Source: Gemmatimonadota bacterium
GTDB taxonomy: Bacteria; Gemmatimonadota; Gemmatimonadetes; Gemmatimonadales; Gemmatimonadaceae
Assembly: GCA_020161135.1 (NCBI GenBank)
Contig: JAIUOB010000005.1
Location: forward strand, 62,001-126,000
Length of the DNA: 64,000 bases
Direction of reading: 5' to 3'
Positions within the stretch are counted from its first letter, which is position 1, and the number at the start of each line of letters is the position of its first letter. Below are positions 3,261-54,499 of this stretch, piece after piece. Position numbers and translations under genes: made by a program. A model generated the notes under the pieces. The model worked only from the letters and a program-made list of their open reading frames with translations. It was not told where the DNA came from and made no database searches.

Positions 3261-4988
3261 TCAGTGCCCCACCGCCATGCCGTCCTTGCGCGGATCGCTG
3301 CCCGCGACCCAGCCCTTGGCGAGCTTCACGATGGCCTGCGCGCCACCGAACTGCGTACGGCGCTCGTCGGTGAGCTCGTGTCCCATGGCCTTGAGCGCGT
3401 TGCGCACCCCGTCGCCCACCGGCGTCTCGATGGCCACCTGCACACCGCTCAGGTGCCGGAAGCGCGCCGCGTCGATGGCCTGCTGCACGTCCATGCCGAA
3501 CACCAGCATGTTGAGCAGCACCTGCACATGCCCCTGCGCCTGCATCGCGCCGCCCATCACGCCGAAGCTCATGTACGGCTCGTCGCGCCCGTTCACCGTG
3601 CGCGTCACGAACGCCGGAATGAGCGTGTGGAACGGCCGCTTGCCGGGCGCGACGGTGTTGGGCAGCCCCGGCTCGAGCGTGAAGCCGGCGCCGCGATCGT
3701 GCAACGCAAAGCCGGTGCCCGGCACCACGATGCCGGAGCCGAACTCGTCGTAGATGGAGTTGATGAAGCTCACCATGTTGCCGTCCTTGTCGGCCGTGGT
3801 GAGATAGATCGTCTCGCTCGACGTGCGCAGCGGCCCCGGGTCGGTCCGCACCATCGCCTTGTTCACGTCGAGGTGACTGCGGCGCTCGCTGATGAACGCA
3901 TCGTCGAGCATCCGCTCGGCGGGCATCGCGAGATGGTCGGCGTCGCCCACGAAGCGGGTGAGGTCGGCGTAGGCGAGCTTCTTGGCTTCGATGAGATGGT
4001 GCAGGTACGGCGCGCTGTTGTGTCCCATCGCCTTGAGATCATACGGCTCGAGGATGCGCAGCATCTCGAGCGCCGCCACGCCCTGGTTGTTGGGCGGCAG
4101 CTCCCACAGGCGATACCCCTGGAAGGGCACCGACATCGGCGTCACCCACGTCGGCTGGTTCTTCCGCAGGTCGTCGAGGGTGAGGAATCCGCCGAGCTTC
4201 TGCACGTGCGCGACGATCTGCTGGCCCATCGCGCCGCCGTAGAAGGTGCCGATACCCTGCGTGGCGATGGTCCGCAGCGTGCGCGCGTAGTCGGGGTTGC
4301 GGAACCATTCACCGGCCTTGGGTGAGCGACCGCCCGGCAGGAAGGTCGCGGTGGCCGCACTGTCGCGCTTGAGGAACGCCTCCTGCCCGACCCAGTCCTC
4401 GGCGATGATCGGCGTGAGCGGAAAGCCCTGCTCGGCATAGCGAATGGCGGGGGCCAGCGAGGCCGCGAGCGTGCGGGTGCCGTAGGTGCGCAGCAACGTT
4501 TGCCAGCCGGCCAGCGCGCCGGGCACGGTGATCGTCTCGACGCCGCGCGGAATCGAGCGGGTGCGCCCGCGCTTGAGCAGTTCGTCGCGCGTCATGCGCG
4601 CCCCCGCGCGCCCGCTCGCGTTGAGCGCGACCAGCTTCTTCTCCTTCGCGAGCCAGATGAGCGCGAACAGGTCGCCACCGATGCCCGTCATCATCGGCTC
4701 GGTCACGCTGAGCACCGCCGCGGCCGTGATGGCGGCGTCGACCGCGTTGCCGCCGGCCTGCAGCACGGCCACGCCCGCCGCCGACGCGAGCGGCTGGCTG
4801 GTGGCGACCATGCCGTTGGGGGCATACACCGGCGAGCGTCCCGCCATGGAGAGCGGGCGCGCCACCGGCGCGGGCGTCTGGGCCGCCAGCGATGCACTGG
4901 CGAGCGAGAGCAGCACCAGCGCCGTACCGGCGGGGCGCAGGCACGGGACACGTGGGGCGGGGACCACGGGCGGGACACGACGCAACAT
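3261..4988 (-). CDS. ggt: Gamma-glutamyltransferase, secreted
   Basis: Cleaves or transfers the gamma-glutamyl group of glutathione and related amides in the periplasm. The 575-residue protein has an N-terminal signal peptide (MLRRVPP... ending in ASASLAAQ near residue 36), the family signature GGNAVDAAITAAAVLSVTEP, and the autoprocessing region SSETIYLTTADKDGN. Aligned with the E. coli enzyme, its Thr near residue 392 is the nucleophile that becomes the N-terminus of the small subunit. A downstream GVMGGAMQAQGHVQ segment is also typical. An in-frame Met 51 codons upstream exists, but the ATG at 4988 puts the signal peptide at the start. The gene is followed at 2 bp by the DinB-fold gene and diverges from the GH9 gene. 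Confidence 0.95.
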   Translation of the reverse strand: MLRRVPPVVPAPRVPCLRPAGTALVLLSLASASLAAQTPAPVARPLSMAGRSPVYAPNGMVATSQPLASAAGVAVLQAGGNAVDAAITAAAVLSVTEPMMTGIGGDLFALIWLAKEKKLVALNASGRAGARMTRDELLKRGRTRSIPRGVETITVPGALAGWQTLLRTYGTRTLAASLAPAIRYAEQGFPLTPIIAEDWVGQEAFLKRDSAATATFLPGGRSPKAGEWFRNPDYARTLRTIATQGIGTFYGGAMGQQIVAHVQKLGGFLTLDDLRKNQPTWVTPMSVPFQGYRLWELPPNNQGVAALEMLRILEPYDLKAMGHNSAPYLHHLIEAKKLAYADLTRFVGDADHLAMPAERMLDDAFISERRSHLDVNKAMVRTDPGPLRTSSETIYLTTADKDGNMVSFINSIYDEFGSGIVVPGTGFALHDRGAGFTLEPGLPNTVAPGKRPFHTLIPAFVTRTVNGRDEPYMSFGVMGGAMQAQGHVQVLLNMLVFGMDVQQAIDAARFRHLSGVQVAIETPVGDGVRNALKAMGHELTDERRTQFGGAQAIVKLAKGWVAGSDPRKDGMAVGH

Positions 4989-5059
4989 CACGAAGCTCCA
5001 GGCATCGGGAGGGGACACGGCGACCTGCGCCTCATTAGGATATCCCACCGCGGCGTCCT

Positions 5060-5107
5060 GCGCCGCGCCTGATACGCGCCGCGCTTGATGCTCGCCGCGC
5101 TTGATGC
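5060..5107. repeat. Three 16-bp direct repeats in a divergent promoter region
   Basis: Three adjacent 16-bp units (5060-5075, 5076-5091, 5092-5107) share CGCCGCGC followed by TTGATGC or a close variant. They sit in the 146-bp gap between the divergent ggt (start 4988) and GH9 (start 5135) genes, where a regulator could bind side-by-side sites. No known operator was recognised. Confidence 0.6.
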
Positions 5108-5134
5108 AGGCCGGCGCGACGCCGAACTTGGCGC

Positions 5135-6904
5135 ATGGCACTCCCCCTGCTGTCGGCCCTCGTCGTGGCGGCCACCGCCGCCGACTCCAGCGCCTTTGTG
5201 CGCATCAATCAGGTGGGCTACCGCCTCGACGCCCCCAAGGTGGCGGTCGTTTGCGCGCTGCGCCCTGTCCGCCTCGGACGCTTCACCGTGGAAACCGAGC
5301 GGGGGCAGGTGCTGCTGGGGCCCAAGCGCGCGGAGCGCGATCGGCCGTTCGCGGCGTGCGTCGAGACCTGGCGCCTCGACTTCAGCGCCCTGCGCCGTCC
5401 GGCGCGTGTCCGGGTCCGGGTGCGCACCGCCGACGGGGCCACGATGTACGAGTCGCCCGTGTTCCCCGTGGGCGACGCGGTCTATCGCGGCCTCGCCGAC
5501 ACGCTCATGGGCTACATGCGCCAGCAGCGGTCGGGGTACAACCCGTTCCTCGGTGACACGGCGCACCGCTTCGACGCGCGCATCGTCGATCACCCCACGC
5601 GCACCGGCGAGGTCGCGCCGGTGCAGGGTGGGTGGGCCGATGCGGCCGACTACCTGCAGTACGTGACGACATCGGCAACGGCGACGTACCACCTGCTGGC
5701 CGCCTGGCGCGACGCGCCGAAGGCCTTCGCCGACCGACGGCGCGCCGACGGACACGCCGGCACCAACGGCGTCCCCGATGTGCTCGACGAGGCACGCCAC
5801 GGCCTGACGTGGCTGCTGCGCATGTTCCCCGACGATCGCACGATGTTCAACCAGCTCGGCGACGATCGCGACCACGCCTTCTTCGACCTGCTCACGACCG
5901 ACTCGTCCGACTACGGCTGGGGCAAGGGGCGTGAACGTCCGGTGTATCCGTGCACCGGGCAGCCGCAGGGCGTCGTGCGCGCGAAGAATCGCTCCACGGG
6001 TTATGCGTCCACGGCGGGCAAGTTCGCGGCGGCGTTCGCGCTGGGCGCCATGCAGTTTCGCACGCGCGACGCGGCGTTCGCCGACACGCTGGCGCGCAAG
6101 GCGCGGGCGGCCTTCGCGTTGGGGGAGGCGTTTCCCGGCGTGTGCCAGACGGCGCCGGGCAGCTCACCCTACTTCTACGAGGAGGCGAGCTGGCATGACG
6201 ACATGGAACTGGGCGGGGCGCTGCTCTACCAGCTCACGGGCGACGCGCACTATCAGCGCGCCGCCCTCACGCATGCCGCCGCCGAACCGGTGACGCCCTG
6301 GATGGGTGCCGACACGGCGAGGCACTACGAGTGGTATCCGTGGCAGAATGCGGGGCACTACGAAACGGCCATGCGCGCGTCCGCCGCGCATCGCACGCGG
6401 CTCGCGACCATGTATCGGGAGGGCCTCACCCGCATCGCGGCCCGCGCGGGGAACGGTTTTCGCATCGGCGTGCCGTTCATCTGGTGCTCGAACAATCTGG
6501 TGGTCGCCACGGCCGTGCAGGCCGCACTGTACCGGCGCCTCACTGGCGACACGCGCTTCGCGACGCTCGAGCAGTCCGCCATCGACTGGCTCTTCGGCAC
6601 GAATCCGTGGGGCACGTCCATGGTGATCGGTGTGCCGCGGCTGGGCGTGTGGCCGCGCGACCCGCACACGGAGCTGCCGCCATCGCTGCACGTGGGGCTC
6701 ACGGGCGGCCTGGTGGACGGCCCGGTGTACCGCTCGATCTTCAGCAACCTGCGCGGCATCGCGCTGCACCATGCCGACGAGTATGCCGCGTTCAACACCG
6801 GCTTCGTCGTGTATCACGATGACCTGGGCGACTACGCGACCAACGAGCACATCATGGACGGCACGGCCGCTCTCGCGTACCTCCTGGCCCTGCAGCACCG
6901 CTGA
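5135..6904 (+). CDS. Glycoside hydrolase family 9 protein with N-terminal Ig-like domain
   Basis: A secreted 589-residue glycosidase, probably acting on cellulose or related beta-glucans or their oligomers. After a short signal peptide comes the N-terminal Ig-like domain typical of GH9 (starting FVRINQVGYRLDAPK, about residues 20-105). The (alpha/alpha)6 catalytic domain follows, with QGGWADAADYLQY near residue 165 carrying the catalytic Asp pair and TNEHIMDGTAAL near residue 570 carrying the catalytic Glu. GH9 proteins of this layout include endoglucanases and exo-acting glucosaminidases, so the exact substrate is open. The start at 5135 (ATG) leaves an unusually short but workable signal sequence. 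It is divergent from ggt and 67 bp upstream of the thioredoxin-like gene on the same strand. Confidence 0.9.
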   Translation: MALPLLSALVVAATAADSSAFVRINQVGYRLDAPKVAVVCALRPVRLGRFTVETERGQVLLGPKRAERDRPFAACVETWRLDFSALRRPARVRVRVRTADGATMYESPVFPVGDAVYRGLADTLMGYMRQQRSGYNPFLGDTAHRFDARIVDHPTRTGEVAPVQGGWADAADYLQYVTTSATATYHLLAAWRDAPKAFADRRRADGHAGTNGVPDVLDEARHGLTWLLRMFPDDRTMFNQLGDDRDHAFFDLLTTDSSDYGWGKGRERPVYPCTGQPQGVVRAKNRSTGYASTAGKFAAAFALGAMQFRTRDAAFADTLARKARAAFALGEAFPGVCQTAPGSSPYFYEEASWHDDMELGGALLYQLTGDAHYQRAALTHAAAEPVTPWMGADTARHYEWYPWQNAGHYETAMRASAAHRTRLATMYREGLTRIAARAGNGFRIGVPFIWCSNNLVVATAVQAALYRRLTGDTRFATLEQSAIDWLFGTNPWGTSMVIGVPRLGVWPRDPHTELPPSLHVGLTGGLVDGPVYRSIFSNLRGIALHHADEYAAFNTGFVVYHDDLGDYATNEHIMDGTAALAYLLALQHR

Positions 6905-6971: not shown

Positions 6972-7799
6972 ATGTCGCTTCCCGTGGTCGATGACGCCGC
7001 GTTCGCGGCGGACGTCCTGACGGCACCGCTGCCGGTGCTGGTGGAATTCGGGGCCGCCTGGTGCCCGCCCTGCCGTGTCCTCGAGCCGGTGCTCGAGCAA
7101 CTGGCCACGCGCTACGAGGGGCGGGTGCGCTTCCGCGCCGTCGACGCCGACGTGGCGCTCGAGACGGTCACGCGTTTCGGCGTGCGCAATCTGCCCACCG
7201 TGCTCCTCTTCGACCGTGGCCAGGTCGTGGAACGCGTCGCCGGTGCGCGCCCCGCTGCCGCCTACGAAGCGCTGCTCGATGCGCACCTGGCCTCTCGCGT
7301 GGCGGAGCTGGCGTCCCCGATCGTCTCGGCGCCGGTCGTCTCGGCGCCGAGCATGGCGGCGACCCCGCTTTGGGTCGATGCGCCCCCCGATGCGCGCGAG
7401 CGCGCGCAGGCGGCTGCGCTCGTCGCGAGCGACGAGCCGCTGCTCGTCTTCAAGCACAGCGACAGTTGCGTCATCTCCATCGCGGTCAAGCGCGAGTTCG
7501 ACGCCTTTCTCGCGGCGCAGGTGAGCACGCCGGTCGCCACGCGGCTCGTGGTCGTGCAGCGTGAGCGCCGCCTCAGTGACGCGCTCGCCGAGGTGTTGCA
7601 GGTCCGGCACGAGTCGCCGCAGGCGCTCCTCGTGCAGCAGGGGCGCGTGCTCTGGCATGCGTCGCATCGCCGCATCACGGCGGACGCGCTGTCGCGGGTG
7701 GTGCACGCTGCGGGGCGCACGTCCGGCACTACCGCTACACCCACTGCTGCCCCCACCGCCGATTCCACTGCTGTTCCCGCCGCCGATTTCGTGGCCTGA
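6972..7799 (+). CDS. Thioredoxin domain fused to a YtxJ-type monothiol bacilliredoxin
   Basis: A 275-residue two-domain redox protein. Residues 1-110 are a thioredoxin fold with the WCPPC active site (Cys31, Cys34) and the cis-Pro motif RNLPTVLLF. Residues about 150-255 match the YtxJ family (bacillithiol-associated monothiol redoxins) with FKHSDSCVIS around a single active Cys. An Ala/Pro/Ser-rich linker joins the domains and a low-complexity Thr/Pro/Ala tail ends the protein. The start is the ATG at 6972 because the thioredoxin fold begins there; the frame is open further upstream but unrelated. YtxJ proteins remove bacillithiol from proteins, so the fusion suggests one polypeptide doing disulfide reduction and de-bacillithiolation. 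That activity is inference. Confidence 0.88.
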   Translation: MSLPVVDDAAFAADVLTAPLPVLVEFGAAWCPPCRVLEPVLEQLATRYEGRVRFRAVDADVALETVTRFGVRNLPTVLLFDRGQVVERVAGARPAAAYEALLDAHLASRVAELASPIVSAPVVSAPSMAATPLWVDAPPDARERAQAAALVASDEPLLVFKHSDSCVISIAVKREFDAFLAAQVSTPVATRLVVVQRERRLSDALAEVLQVRHESPQALLVQQGRVLWHASHRRITADALSRVVHAAGRTSGTTATPTAAPTADSTAVPAADFVA

Positions 7800-7810
7800 T
7801 CCCACCCCCC

Positions 7811-9925
7811 GTGCCCATGCCCAGCACCATCCTGCGCCACGCGCGCGTCATGTCGTCCCGCCGCGCCGGTCTCACCCTTGCCGCCCTGCTGCTCGCGTCA
7901 GTGCCGCACGCGATGGCCGCACAGGTCGCGTCCTCCGCAGCCTCCGCCCGCACCGCCGACGCACGGCCACCACGCGCCGTCCGCCGCGACATCCCCATCA
8001 CGAACGCCATCCGTCGCGCGCTCGCGGCGGGCTCGCGGGATTCCAGTGGACGCCCCACCGCCAAGTACTGGCAACTGCGCACGGACTACAACATCGACGT
8101 CTCGCTCGACCCCGCGACACAGCGCCTCACCGGCAAGGCGCGCATCACGGTGCACAACGCGAGCCCGAATGCACTCCCCGATCTCGCGCTGCGTCTCGAT
8201 CCGAACCACTTCCTGGGCAACGCGCCTCACGCGGCGACGTGGGTGCCCAGTGAAGTCACCGACGGCATGGTGCTGTCGCGCATGACGGTGAACGGCGCGC
8301 CGGTGAACATCGCCTCGAACCAGGCGCCCGCGTCGACCGGGGCCGAGGGCGCGCGCGCCATCCAGACCGCGCAGCAGCAACAGGCGCAGGGCGCGGGCGG
8401 CAACACGCTGCTGAGCGGCCGCAGCACGAACGCCCGTGTGCGCCTCGCGAGCCCCATCGCGCCGGGGGCGCGCGCGGTCATCGAGATCGACTGGTCGCAC
8501 AAGTTGCCGGGCGGTCCCGGCACCGGCCACCGCATGACGCAGCGGTGGGCCGACACGCTCTTCCAGCCCACGCAGTGGTTCCCGCGCGTGGCCGTGTACG
8601 ACGACCTGCGCGGCTGGGACACCGAGCTCTATCTCGGCCCGTCGGAGTTCTACAACAACTTCGGCACCTTCGACGTGAACATCGACGTGCCCGCCGGCTG
8701 GATCGTGAGCGGCACCGGCATCCTGCAGAACCCCGAGCAGGTGCTCACGGCCAAGGCGCGGGCGCAGCTCGCGAAGGTCACCGGTACCGACGACATCACC
8801 ACCATCGTCGGTCCGGAGGAGGTGGGGCCGGGGCAGGCGACGGCGACGAGCCCCAGCGGCCGCCTCACCTGGCGCTTCCATGCGGACACAGTGAACGACT
8901 TCGCCTGGGCCACGGCCAGGAAGTACGTGTGGCAGGCGACACGCGCGAACATCCCGACCAAGGGCTACGTGCCGGTCCACATGCTGTACCTGCCGGGACG
9001 CGCCAACCTGTTCGCGCGCGCGGGACAGATCACGCGCCACGCCCTCGAGTTCTACTCCAAGCTCTGGTTCCCCTACCAGTTCCCGCAGCTCACGCTGCAG
9101 GACGGGCCGAGCGCCGGCATGGAGTACCCGATGGTCATCAACTCCAATCAGGGCGCCGCGGATCACGAGACCGGGCACCAGTGGTGGCCCATGGTCGTGA
9201 GCAACAACGAGACGTGGTACGGCTGGATGGACGAGGGCTTCAATCAGTACATGAACGTCCTCTCCGATGCCGATGCCGCCGGCAAGCCCGCCGTGTTCGA
9301 TGGCCTCGGGCAGAGCTACGGCCGCACGAGCGGCAATGAAGCGGAGCCGCCGATGATGTGGAACGCCAACTACGGCGGTCCCGGCTTCTATGGCTTCACG
9401 ACGTACAGCAAGACGCCGCTCATGCTCAGCATGCTCGGTGGTATCGTGGGTGACAGCGCCGTGCAGCGCGCGCAGCGCGAGTGGGCCACCGCGTGGATGT
9501 TCAAGCATCCGTCGCCGTGGGACTGGATGTTCTTCATGAACAAGGCGCTGGGGCGTGACCTGGGCTGGTTCTGGTACAGCTGGCTCTTCACCACGGAGAG
9601 CGTCGAGGGCCGCATCGCGTCGGTGAAGACCGCCGGGATCCGCACGAGCGTGGTGGTGGCGCAGGATGGCGGCATGCCCGCCCCCATCGTGCTCGAGGTG
9701 AAGTTCGCGGCCACCGGGGCCGCCATTCGCCCGATGAAGAACGCGGTGATGGTCGATGCGACCACGGCGCGCGTCACGGTGCCGGTTGACGTGTGGTTCG
9801 ACGGGCGCCGCCAGCACACCGTCGATCTCATGTTCGGCGGCCGCGCCATCGAGCGCATCACGCTCGACCCCGACAAGCGCTTCCCCGATCGCGATCCGGC
9901 CGACAACGTCTGGCCGAAGCCGTAG
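7811..9925 (+). CDS. Secreted M1-family zinc metallopeptidase
   Basis: A large M1 (gluzincin) peptidase of up to 704 residues with a signal peptide ending MAAQ. The zinc motif HETGHQW lies near residue 452 and the third ligand Glu follows 18 residues later (GWMDEGFNQYMN), exactly the M1 spacing. AGMEYPMVI upstream corresponds to the GxMEN substrate-binding motif. The start is uncertain: GTG 7811, ATG 7817 and ATG 7850 are all in frame, and the last still keeps a full signal peptide. Only 11 bp separate it from the thioredoxin-YtxJ gene, so they may form one transcript. The same architecture recurs in the protein at 19847-21856; both resemble M1 peptidases of extracellular protein degraders. 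Confidence 0.92.
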   Translation: MPMPSTILRHARVMSSRRAGLTLAALLLASVPHAMAAQVASSAASARTADARPPRAVRRDIPITNAIRRALAAGSRDSSGRPTAKYWQLRTDYNIDVSLDPATQRLTGKARITVHNASPNALPDLALRLDPNHFLGNAPHAATWVPSEVTDGMVLSRMTVNGAPVNIASNQAPASTGAEGARAIQTAQQQQAQGAGGNTLLSGRSTNARVRLASPIAPGARAVIEIDWSHKLPGGPGTGHRMTQRWADTLFQPTQWFPRVAVYDDLRGWDTELYLGPSEFYNNFGTFDVNIDVPAGWIVSGTGILQNPEQVLTAKARAQLAKVTGTDDITTIVGPEEVGPGQATATSPSGRLTWRFHADTVNDFAWATARKYVWQATRANIPTKGYVPVHMLYLPGRANLFARAGQITRHALEFYSKLWFPYQFPQLTLQDGPSAGMEYPMVINSNQGAADHETGHQWWPMVVSNNETWYGWMDEGFNQYMNVLSDADAAGKPAVFDGLGQSYGRTSGNEAEPPMMWNANYGGPGFYGFTTYSKTPLMLSMLGGIVGDSAVQRAQREWATAWMFKHPSPWDWMFFMNKALGRDLGWFWYSWLFTTESVEGRIASVKTAGIRTSVVVAQDGGMPAPIVLEVKFAATGAAIRPMKNAVMVDATTARVTVPVDVWFDGRRQHTVDLMFGGRAIERITLDPDKRFPDRDPADNVWPKP

Positions 9926-52356: not shown

Positions 52357-54499
52357 GCCAGCGTGCACACCGCGACCATCGCCATGTCCATGCTGCGTCC
52401 TCAATCCCGACTGTTTTCATCCCGAACGGCGACCTGTCGCGACGACCATGTCGCGAGAACGTTTGGAGTAGTGGTGTCGATCCTATGCAACGGCGCGCGT
52501 GCGACGGCGAGTGAATGGCCGCGTGCTCGTTCCATTGCCGCAGTGCTGCTCGCGCTGCTGCTGCTCGCCGTGCCGCCAGTGGCGCGCACCGCGGCCGCGC
52601 AGGAGGCGCCCGGCCGACGCCTCGCGAATGTGGTGGGTGTGGCCGTCGAAGAGTATGGGAAGGCGGTCGATTCACGCGGCCGGCTCCTCTCCGACATCGA
52701 ATACGCAGAGGCGGTCGACTTTCTTGCCGATGCACGCGGGATCGCGGGCCGACTCGGCGGTGCACGGGCCCCCGCCGTGCGGGCCCTCCTCGATTCGCTG
52801 AGGGATGCGGTGATCGCGACCCGCGAGCCAGCCACGGTGACCGCGCTGCATGCGCGCTTCGTCGAGGCGCTCGGTCCGGAAGGCGCACTCGAACTGCCGC
52901 GAGTGCCGCTCGATCTCGCGAGCGGCAAGCGGATCTACGCGCAGCAGTGCGCCTCGTGCCACGCCGCCGTAGGACTCGGTGACGGACCGGCGGCGCGCCA
53001 GGGGCCAGTCCCGGCGCCAGCCATCGGCACGGCGAAGGTCATGCACGACGTCTCGCCGGCGTTGACCTATCGGATCGTGTCCGTCGGCGTGCCGGGCACC
53101 ACCATGCCGGGGTGGGCTGGCACGTTGTCCTCCGCGGAGCGATGGAACGTGGTGGCCTACGTGACCTCGCTACGCGCGAATGCGGCGGCGCTGGGCACCG
53201 GCGAAGGTGAGTTCGCGCAGCGCTGCACCGGCTGTCATGGCGTGGTCGGCGCATCCGACGGTCCGCTCACGCCCACACTGAGTACGCTGCCGCCCGAAAT
53301 CGGCAGCTTCGCGTGGCAGAGCGAGCGCAGCGACGCGGACATCGCGCGAGTGATTCGCGAGGGCCTGCCGGGGCGGGCGATGCCGGCGCAGCGCGAGCTG
53401 ACCAGCGATGAGGTGCGTGCGGTGGTGGCCTACGTGCGGACGCTCGCGGTCGACACGGCCCACCGAACAAATGGCGCGGCCACCGCGACGTCGGGAGACG
53501 GGGGCGATCCGCTTCCGCGCGCGCGCGAAACGGGACGTCGCGTGCTCGCGGCGCTCGACGCGGCGCTGGGCCAGGCGCGCCTTGGCCGGCGCCAGGAGGC
53601 GGGCGACCAAGCGTTTGATGCCTACATCGCCTTTGAGCCGCTGGAGACGGCCGCAGGCGCCCGCGACGCAGGCCTCGTCGCGGCCATGGAGCGCCGCTTC
53701 GCCGAGTTCAAGGGCGCGGTGCGCGCCGGTGATCTTCGGCAGGCGCAGCGCGCCCGCGACGCCATCGAGACCGGACTGCCCGCCATCGTCGCGCTGGCCC
53801 GGCCACCCGCGAGCGGATGGGGCGCGTTCTACCAGAGTTTCCTCATCATCCTGCGCGAGGGGTTCGAGGCGATCCTCGTCATCGGCGCGGTGGTGACGCT
53901 GCTGGTGAAGACGGGGCATCGGGAGCGGCTGCGCGCCGTGTGGACCGGGGTCGGCCTCGCGTTGCTTGCGAGTGCCGCGACGGCCGCGGTGCTGGCGACC
54001 GTGCTTCGCGCCATTCCTGCCAGTCGCGAGGTGATGGAAGGCGCGACCATGCTGGTCGCCGTCGCCGTGCTGTTTTCGATCAGCTACTGGTTGATCTCGC
54101 GCGCCGAGGCGGCGCGGTGGCAGTCGTTCATTCGTGACAAGGTCGACGCCGCGCTCGCGCACGGCGGGGGGGCGCGCTCACGCTGGTCGCATTCCTCGCC
54201 GTCTATCGTGAAGGCGCGGAGACGGCGCTCTTCTTCCAGGCGCTGTTCCAGGACGGCGCCGACATCATGCTGCCGATCACGCTGGGTATCGCCGCCGGCA
54301 GTGTCGCGCTCGCGGTGATCTTCACGCTCTTCTACCGCTACGGAGTCCGCGTGCCGATGCGGCCGTTCTTCACGGTCACGAGCGCACTCCTGTACTACAT
54401 GGCGTTCACGTTCATGGGCCGTGGCGTGCGCGAGTTGCAGGAGGGGGATGTGCTGCCGCTCCATGCCATCCCGGCGTTTCCGACGGTGGAGTTCCTAGG

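Follow-up and report, generated by a model that had tools for sequence, protein, structure and literature searches.

The window, i.e. the whole 64,000-nucleotide stretch of DNA analysed here, harbours a gene whose product combines a thioredoxin (Trx) domain and a monothiol bacilliredoxin domain of the BrxC (YtxJ) type in a single chain (Table 1). The frame contains no internal stop codon, and each domain scores well above its Pfam cut-off (E 1.2e-22, 80.3 bits versus 23.5 for PF00085; E 2.9e-24, 85.4 bits versus 24.2 for PF11009). A preliminary description of this DNA had reported that a WCPPC thioredoxin and a monothiol YtxJ domain share one chain, and this observation is confirmed.

Table 1. 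Features of the fusion gene and of other genes discussed in the text
Feature	Positions in the window	Strand	Basis or remark
Trx-BrxC fusion gene, 275 aa	6972-7799	+	open frame translated, Pfam, NCBIfam
Thioredoxin domain, residues 5-102	6984-7277	+	Pfam PF00085
WCPPC active site, residues 30-34	7059-7073	+	sequence
Ala/Pro-rich linker, residues 109-145	7296-7406	+	poorly conserved between the domains
BrxC/YtxJ monothiol bacilliredoxin domain, residues 152-240	7425-7691	+	PF11009, TIGR04019, solved relative 3iv4
KHSDSCVIS active site, residues 161-169, Cys166	7452-7478	+	conserved residues among members
HESPQ motif, residues 213-217, presumed cis-Pro loop of BrxC fold	7608-7622	+	kept across BrxC domains
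Peptidase M1-like gene	7811-9925	+	Pfam Peptidase_M1, 29.5 bits versus cut-off 27.7
DinB_2/MDMPI-type protein, 187 aa	2695-3258	-	Pfam DinB_2, 62 bits
Gamma-glutamyltranspeptidase (GGT), adjoins DinB gene	3261-5141	-	side observation
Metallo-beta-lactamase + rhodanese (MBL-rhodanese) protein, 576 aa	22654-24384	-	presumably the 'persulfide enzyme' of the preliminary description

The N-terminal half matches the thioredoxin profile and has both the WCxxC site and an RNLP cis-Pro motif, and its best solved relatives are thioredoxins. It does not pass the NCBIfam equivalog model for plain thioredoxins (TIGR01068; 80.3 versus 96.8 bits). As for the C-terminal half, it exceeds the cut-off of TIGR04019 (B_thiol_YtxJ; 90.1 versus 77.25 bits) and matches structure 3iv4 (E 1e-11), with which it shares KHS..C..S and HESPQ; 3iv4 is listed as a known DUF2847 structure in a paper on thioredoxin-fold families (PMC3091736). 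The lone Cys of this domain lies in KHS..C..S with a Ser at +3 and no second Cys, and the whole protein has Cys residues at positions 31, 34 and 166 only. By analogy with the Trx fold, HESPQ is presumed to form the cis-Pro loop. The TCPIS sequence typical of Bacillus is absent from the window protein, which has SCVIS, and other fusions have TCPIS, TCSIS, TCGVS or SCPVS at that site. As the site also varies across the phylum and in Bacteroidota, exact TCPIS was not treated as defining, and it is no criterion of the BrxC profile models.

Translation likely starts at 6972. An ATG is found within approximately four residues of this start in all 17 untruncated members of the family, the compared starts being chosen by script as the last Met upstream of the Trx match. 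For one relative (L052), no more than 11 further residues fit into the open frame upstream, and a longer GTG-initiated frame from 6630 in the window overlaps the preceding gene. The protein is probably cytosolic, with no leader recognisable by eye. A single-sequence structure prediction had a mean pLDDT of 37.3, which is too poor for domain contacts, and it was not used.

Gene neighbourhood

An M1-like peptidase gene lies 3' of the fusion gene on the same strand in 9/9 relatives and likewise in genome G396 (see below), with 0.1-2.7 kb between the matched stretches in the relatives. It is the sole conserved neighbour among those tested, and the neighbouring genes give no functional hint for the fusion.

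The preliminary description had seen in a DinB-fold protein and a persulfide enzyme of the window a fit with a bacillithiol-like thiol. Both genes are real, but neither is tied to the fusion. None of the nine relatives showed a DinB homologue near the fusion (tblastn, E 1e-8, a search that a fast-diverging DinB could escape), and a GGT gene was nearby in one of the nine (G270); the idea of a thiol gene cluster around the fusion was therefore rejected. The window DinB protein hit none of the NCBIfam models at E 0.001; it may function as an STL-type bacillithiol S-transferase (PMC5815605). The MBL-rhodanese gene is located ~15 kb from the fusion gene; its product resembles the GloB and Blh models at scores far under their cut-offs, and no NCBIfam cut-off is passed. 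Elsewhere in the window, one frame (52363-54318, + strand) combines cytochrome c, in two stretches, with an FTR1 iron permease domain.

Conservation of the two active sites

Conservation was assessed on the 17 untruncated members, window protein included. Cys31, Cys34 and Cys166 are invariant (17/17), as are, among others, W30, P33 and P75 in the Trx half and K161, H162, S163, S169, H213, P216 and Q217 in the BrxC half. The mean majority fraction per column reaches 0.74 in the Trx domain and 0.73 in the BrxC domain, versus 0.34 in the linker and 0.14 in the C-terminal tail, and the two domain matches are spaced by 24-45 residues, largely small residues and Pro. Selection thus acts on both active sites, the three cysteines being invariant while the linker drifts. 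The WCxPC motif is present in all 17 proteins, as WCTPC (7), WCQPC (6), WCAPC (3) or, in the window protein, WCPPC (1); WCGPC does not occur.

Both domains were detected by Pfam in 9/9 members scanned, and no glutaredoxin family was among the nine Pfam families that these members matched. The His, Pro and Gln residues of HESPQ are retained in 78/78 BrxC domains compared. One BrxC relative devoid of a Trx domain (L032:621-890) has CMIC where the others have the monothiol C..S; it is possible from this motif that it represents a dithiol bacilliredoxin.

Distribution and origin of the fusion

In a sample of 395 genomes of the phylum, 81 have BrxC, with 83 matches. We examined 51 of these 83 loci with profiles and judged the remaining 32 by their open frame alone. 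The profiled loci comprise 18 fusions and 33 non-fusions, and the frames of the other 32 matches, at most 183 aa long, are too short for both domains. All 18 fusions belong to the genus of the window, one in each of its BrxC-positive genomes (18/18). One member of the genus (G279) has a second, stand-alone BrxC (L059) with a long branch alongside the fusion.

A dedicated search of 30 genomes of the genus identified the fusion in 22, or in 13/16 when restricted to genomes with a completeness of 90% or more and a contamination of 5% or less. The gene is whole or truncated at a contig end in 21 of the 22, whereas G396 has it as two pieces located at contig ends. Separate Trx and BrxC genes in place of the fusion were not shown in any of these 22 genomes, the halves in G396 lying at contig ends. 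The same architecture in 22/30 genomes (G396 as two pieces) led us to reject a frame or assembly artefact. In two members (G068 and G019), the match contains an inner stop, with the profile match extending past the C-terminal stop of the 242- and 238-aa proteins. No fusion was detected in eight of the 30 genomes, five of which are at most 86% complete. In the three others, G112, G219 and G383 (90-96% complete), it is absent upstream of the best M1-peptidase match, with ~7.7, ~4.0 and ~3.0 kb of sequence available upstream of the peptidase gene, respectively; the fusion therefore seems dispensable.

Outside the phylum, at least 80 loci related to the Trx half and linker were found, with matches confined to residues 1-137 of the query, i.e. 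to these two parts. Thirty genomes taken from 80 with such loci were searched; BrxC is present in 15 of them, in open frames of 115-151 aa. BrxC occurs in 181/395 genomes of a sample centred on Larkinella (Bacteroidota). Among the 150 matches listed, of 185 in this sample, frames reach up to 230 aa, and a thioredoxin is absent from the three that are at least 200 aa long. Seven plasmid records with related BrxC are all annotated plainly as YtxJ. Thus, no Trx-BrxC fusion was found among the BrxC genes that we inspected in Bacteroidota and in the remainder of the phylum.

In a tree of 78 BrxC domains, the 18 fused domains form one side of a branch with support 100/99. They lie nearer to the domains of a different class within the phylum (f11), and to a few rows from outside the phylum, than to most of the stand-alone BrxC domains in their own class, with middling support for this proximity (95/73 to 96/79). 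As for the Trx domains, the copy cut at a contig end (L057) was left out, leaving 17 fused domains. A first tree, which held three redoxin rows on extreme branches (L262, L263 and L267), did not group the fused Trx halves in one clade and placed that of the window apart from the others. In a second tree, with these three rows dropped and the outside rows thinned from 40 to 27, the 17 domains form one clade (99/93) apart from the other thioredoxins compared. Most likely, judging from these trees, the fusion arose once, the Trx side being less firmly supported.

Bacillithiol and thioredoxin systems of the genome

Profile searches of the genome identified bshA (529 versus a cut-off of 273.7 bits) and bshB1 (222.5 versus 182.5 bits) above curated cut-offs, and bshC above its Pfam cut-off and just under that of the stricter NCBIfam model TIGR03998 (252.9 versus 265.8 bits). 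By its genes, the organism would thus be a bacillithiol (BSH) maker. Bdr/YpdA (365.5 versus 339.9 bits), a BrxA/B protein with CGC and a thioredoxin reductase (TrxR) also score above their cut-offs. A separate thioredoxin (WCAPC) is 40% identical to the fused Trx domain over 100 residues. The same genome encodes a 582-aa thioredoxin-reductase-like protein with ~240 extra N-terminal residues (L015:1351-3099, - strand), which scores under the TrxR cut-off. In this assembly, which is 93.6% complete, no BrxC domain other than that of the fusion was found, and any BrxC function would therefore fall to the fusion.

The preliminary description had taken the fusion as a predictor of bacillithiol or a similar thiol. 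The bsh genes are indeed present, but BshC occurs in 373/395 genomes of the phylum sample and BrxC in 81/395. Near-universal BshC makes bacillithiol the expected background in this phylum, and we rejected the fusion as a specific predictor. BSH was predicted in Gemmatimonadetes in 2018 (PMC6282198), and NmbA, which makes N-methyl-BSH, is reported to be frequent in Gemmatimonadota (PMC12719100). In Gemmatimonas phototrophica, bshB1 is reported to be one of the genes most strongly downregulated upon illumination (PMC11406998).

Discussion

The fusion combines two known parts in a new way. Its family membership suggests that it debacillithiolates proteins, as B. subtilis BrxC does for Gap, BrxB and Bdr (PMC8945050), and it might represent a two-domain thiol oxidoreductase of the BSH system. 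Cys166 of the BrxC domain would take BSH from S-bacillithiolated proteins, yielding a mixed disulfide (BrxC-SSB). The Trx half (Cys31/Cys34), separated from the BrxC domain by a few dozen residues of flexible linker, would then reduce this disulfide in cis or, alternatively, complete the reduction of the same client. Recharging of the Trx half by TrxR would link the NADPH-TrxR and BSH-Bdr pathways. Coupled disulfide and bacillithiol chemistry, as put forward in the preliminary description, is thus plausible from the two domains. The BrxC role of the fusion appears fairly safe; electron transfer in cis, which we infer, is not. Taken together, we see evenly balanced chances that the fusion is a debacillithiolating enzyme of the BSH system whose BrxC-SSB form can be served in cis by Trx.

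In ordinary bacilliredoxins, the mixed disulfide is described as being cleared by BSH, followed by Bdr, or by Bdr itself. Since Bdr is able to act on B. subtilis BrxC-SSB, a Trx would in principle be unnecessary. Nevertheless, B. subtilis Bdr reduces BrxC-SSB less efficiently than BrxB-SSB (PMC8945050), and in our reading the route by which cells clear BrxC-SSB is therefore not fully settled.

The main rivals of reduction in cis are plain tethering of the two domains and a reverse flow of electrons. It may be that the domains work independently and that the common chain ensures co-expression and shared stoichiometry, with no direct electron transfer. The variable Ala/Pro-rich linker is consistent with this, and each domain is complete and has stand-alone counterparts elsewhere, but the domains are fused in 22/22 genus genomes that have the fusion, more than expected if fusion were useless, and we find such independence unlikely, if worth keeping in mind. 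Alternatively, electrons might run from BSH and Bdr through the BrxC domain to the Trx domain, making the latter a bacillithiol-fed thioredoxin. An analogous relay exists for trypanothione, which feeds tryparedoxin, and the tryparedoxin motif is WCPPC. The window protein has this motif, WCGPC is found in 0/17 untruncated members, and the separate thioredoxin and TrxR in the genome leave room for a specialised thioredoxin. However, CPPC occurs in just 1/17 members, the Trx half is in other respects ordinary (80.3 bits), and the missing WCGPC is weak evidence, as the separate thioredoxin of the genome is also WCAPC. In addition, by general thiol chemistry the BrxC domain, with its one Cys, would have to rely on another thiol, for example BSH, to complete the reduction of a disulfide. 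On balance, reverse flow looks improbable to us. A main role outside debacillithiolation, such as the handling of iron-sulphur clusters or of BSH as a ligand by analogy with Grx3/PICOT, would match the layout of TRX-GRX fusions, with an N-terminal Trx and a C-terminal monothiol module, but the eukaryotic Trx module is described as lacking the conserved active site (PMC2679010), which is intact here in 17/17 members, and we regard such a role as very improbable.

In profile scores and motifs, the C-terminal half of the fusion resembles BrxC (YtxJ) of Bacillus and Staphylococcus. Nevertheless, the BrxC of B. subtilis stands alone as a 108-aa protein (PMC8945050), whereas the BrxC domain of the window follows a complete thioredoxin, and the Bacillus-type site is TCPIS versus SCVIS. 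Similarly, the Trx half shares WCxPC and RNLP with PF00085 thioredoxins but differs from them in being fused and in scoring under the TIGR01068 cut-off. Closest in kind to the fusion are AbxC of Deinococcus and the Trx-Grx fusions. AbxC, an atypical BrxC from a group that makes BSH, is likewise a longer chain that includes a BrxC-type domain; it is described as having TCHKT and a C-terminal colicin-immunity-like region, with no second thioredoxin in those descriptions (PMC8301015, PMC8945050). The AbxC model NF053651 gives 20.8 versus 340 bits on the window fusion, which has no TCHKT. In TRX-GRX fusions (Grx3/Grx4/PICOT and bacterial or archaeal CPYC types), Trx precedes a low-molecular-weight-thiol oxidoreductase, as here, but that partner is a glutaredoxin, of the CPYC class in prokaryotes (PMC2679010), whereas the window fusion joins an intact Trx to a monothiol bacilliredoxin. 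Among the papers listed from the bacilliredoxin and bacillithiol literature searched, which covered few subscription journals, we found no description of a Trx-BrxC fusion, nor did we meet any in-cis Trx-BrxC coupling proposed for the bacillithiol system.

Both halves look functional, and their union in one chain suggests a physical coupling of two thiol-repair pathways that are otherwise separate. It would be a bacillithiol counterpart to the Trx-glutaredoxin fusions of the glutathione world, built from different parts. A natural intact thioredoxin beside BrxC makes one answer to the question of BrxC-SSB clearance testable with a single purified protein. If other members of the phylum make bacillithiol, most of them must process bacillithiolated proteins without BrxC. 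As for the fusion itself, it is tempting to speculate, at somewhat less than even chances, that it is a single-chain bridge between two NADPH-driven thiol systems, in which either Trx resolves BrxC-SSB in cis or BSH feeds Trx via BrxC. If so, debacillithiolation of proteins in the host would require neither free BSH nor Bdr, or bacillithiol would serve to drive a thioredoxin.
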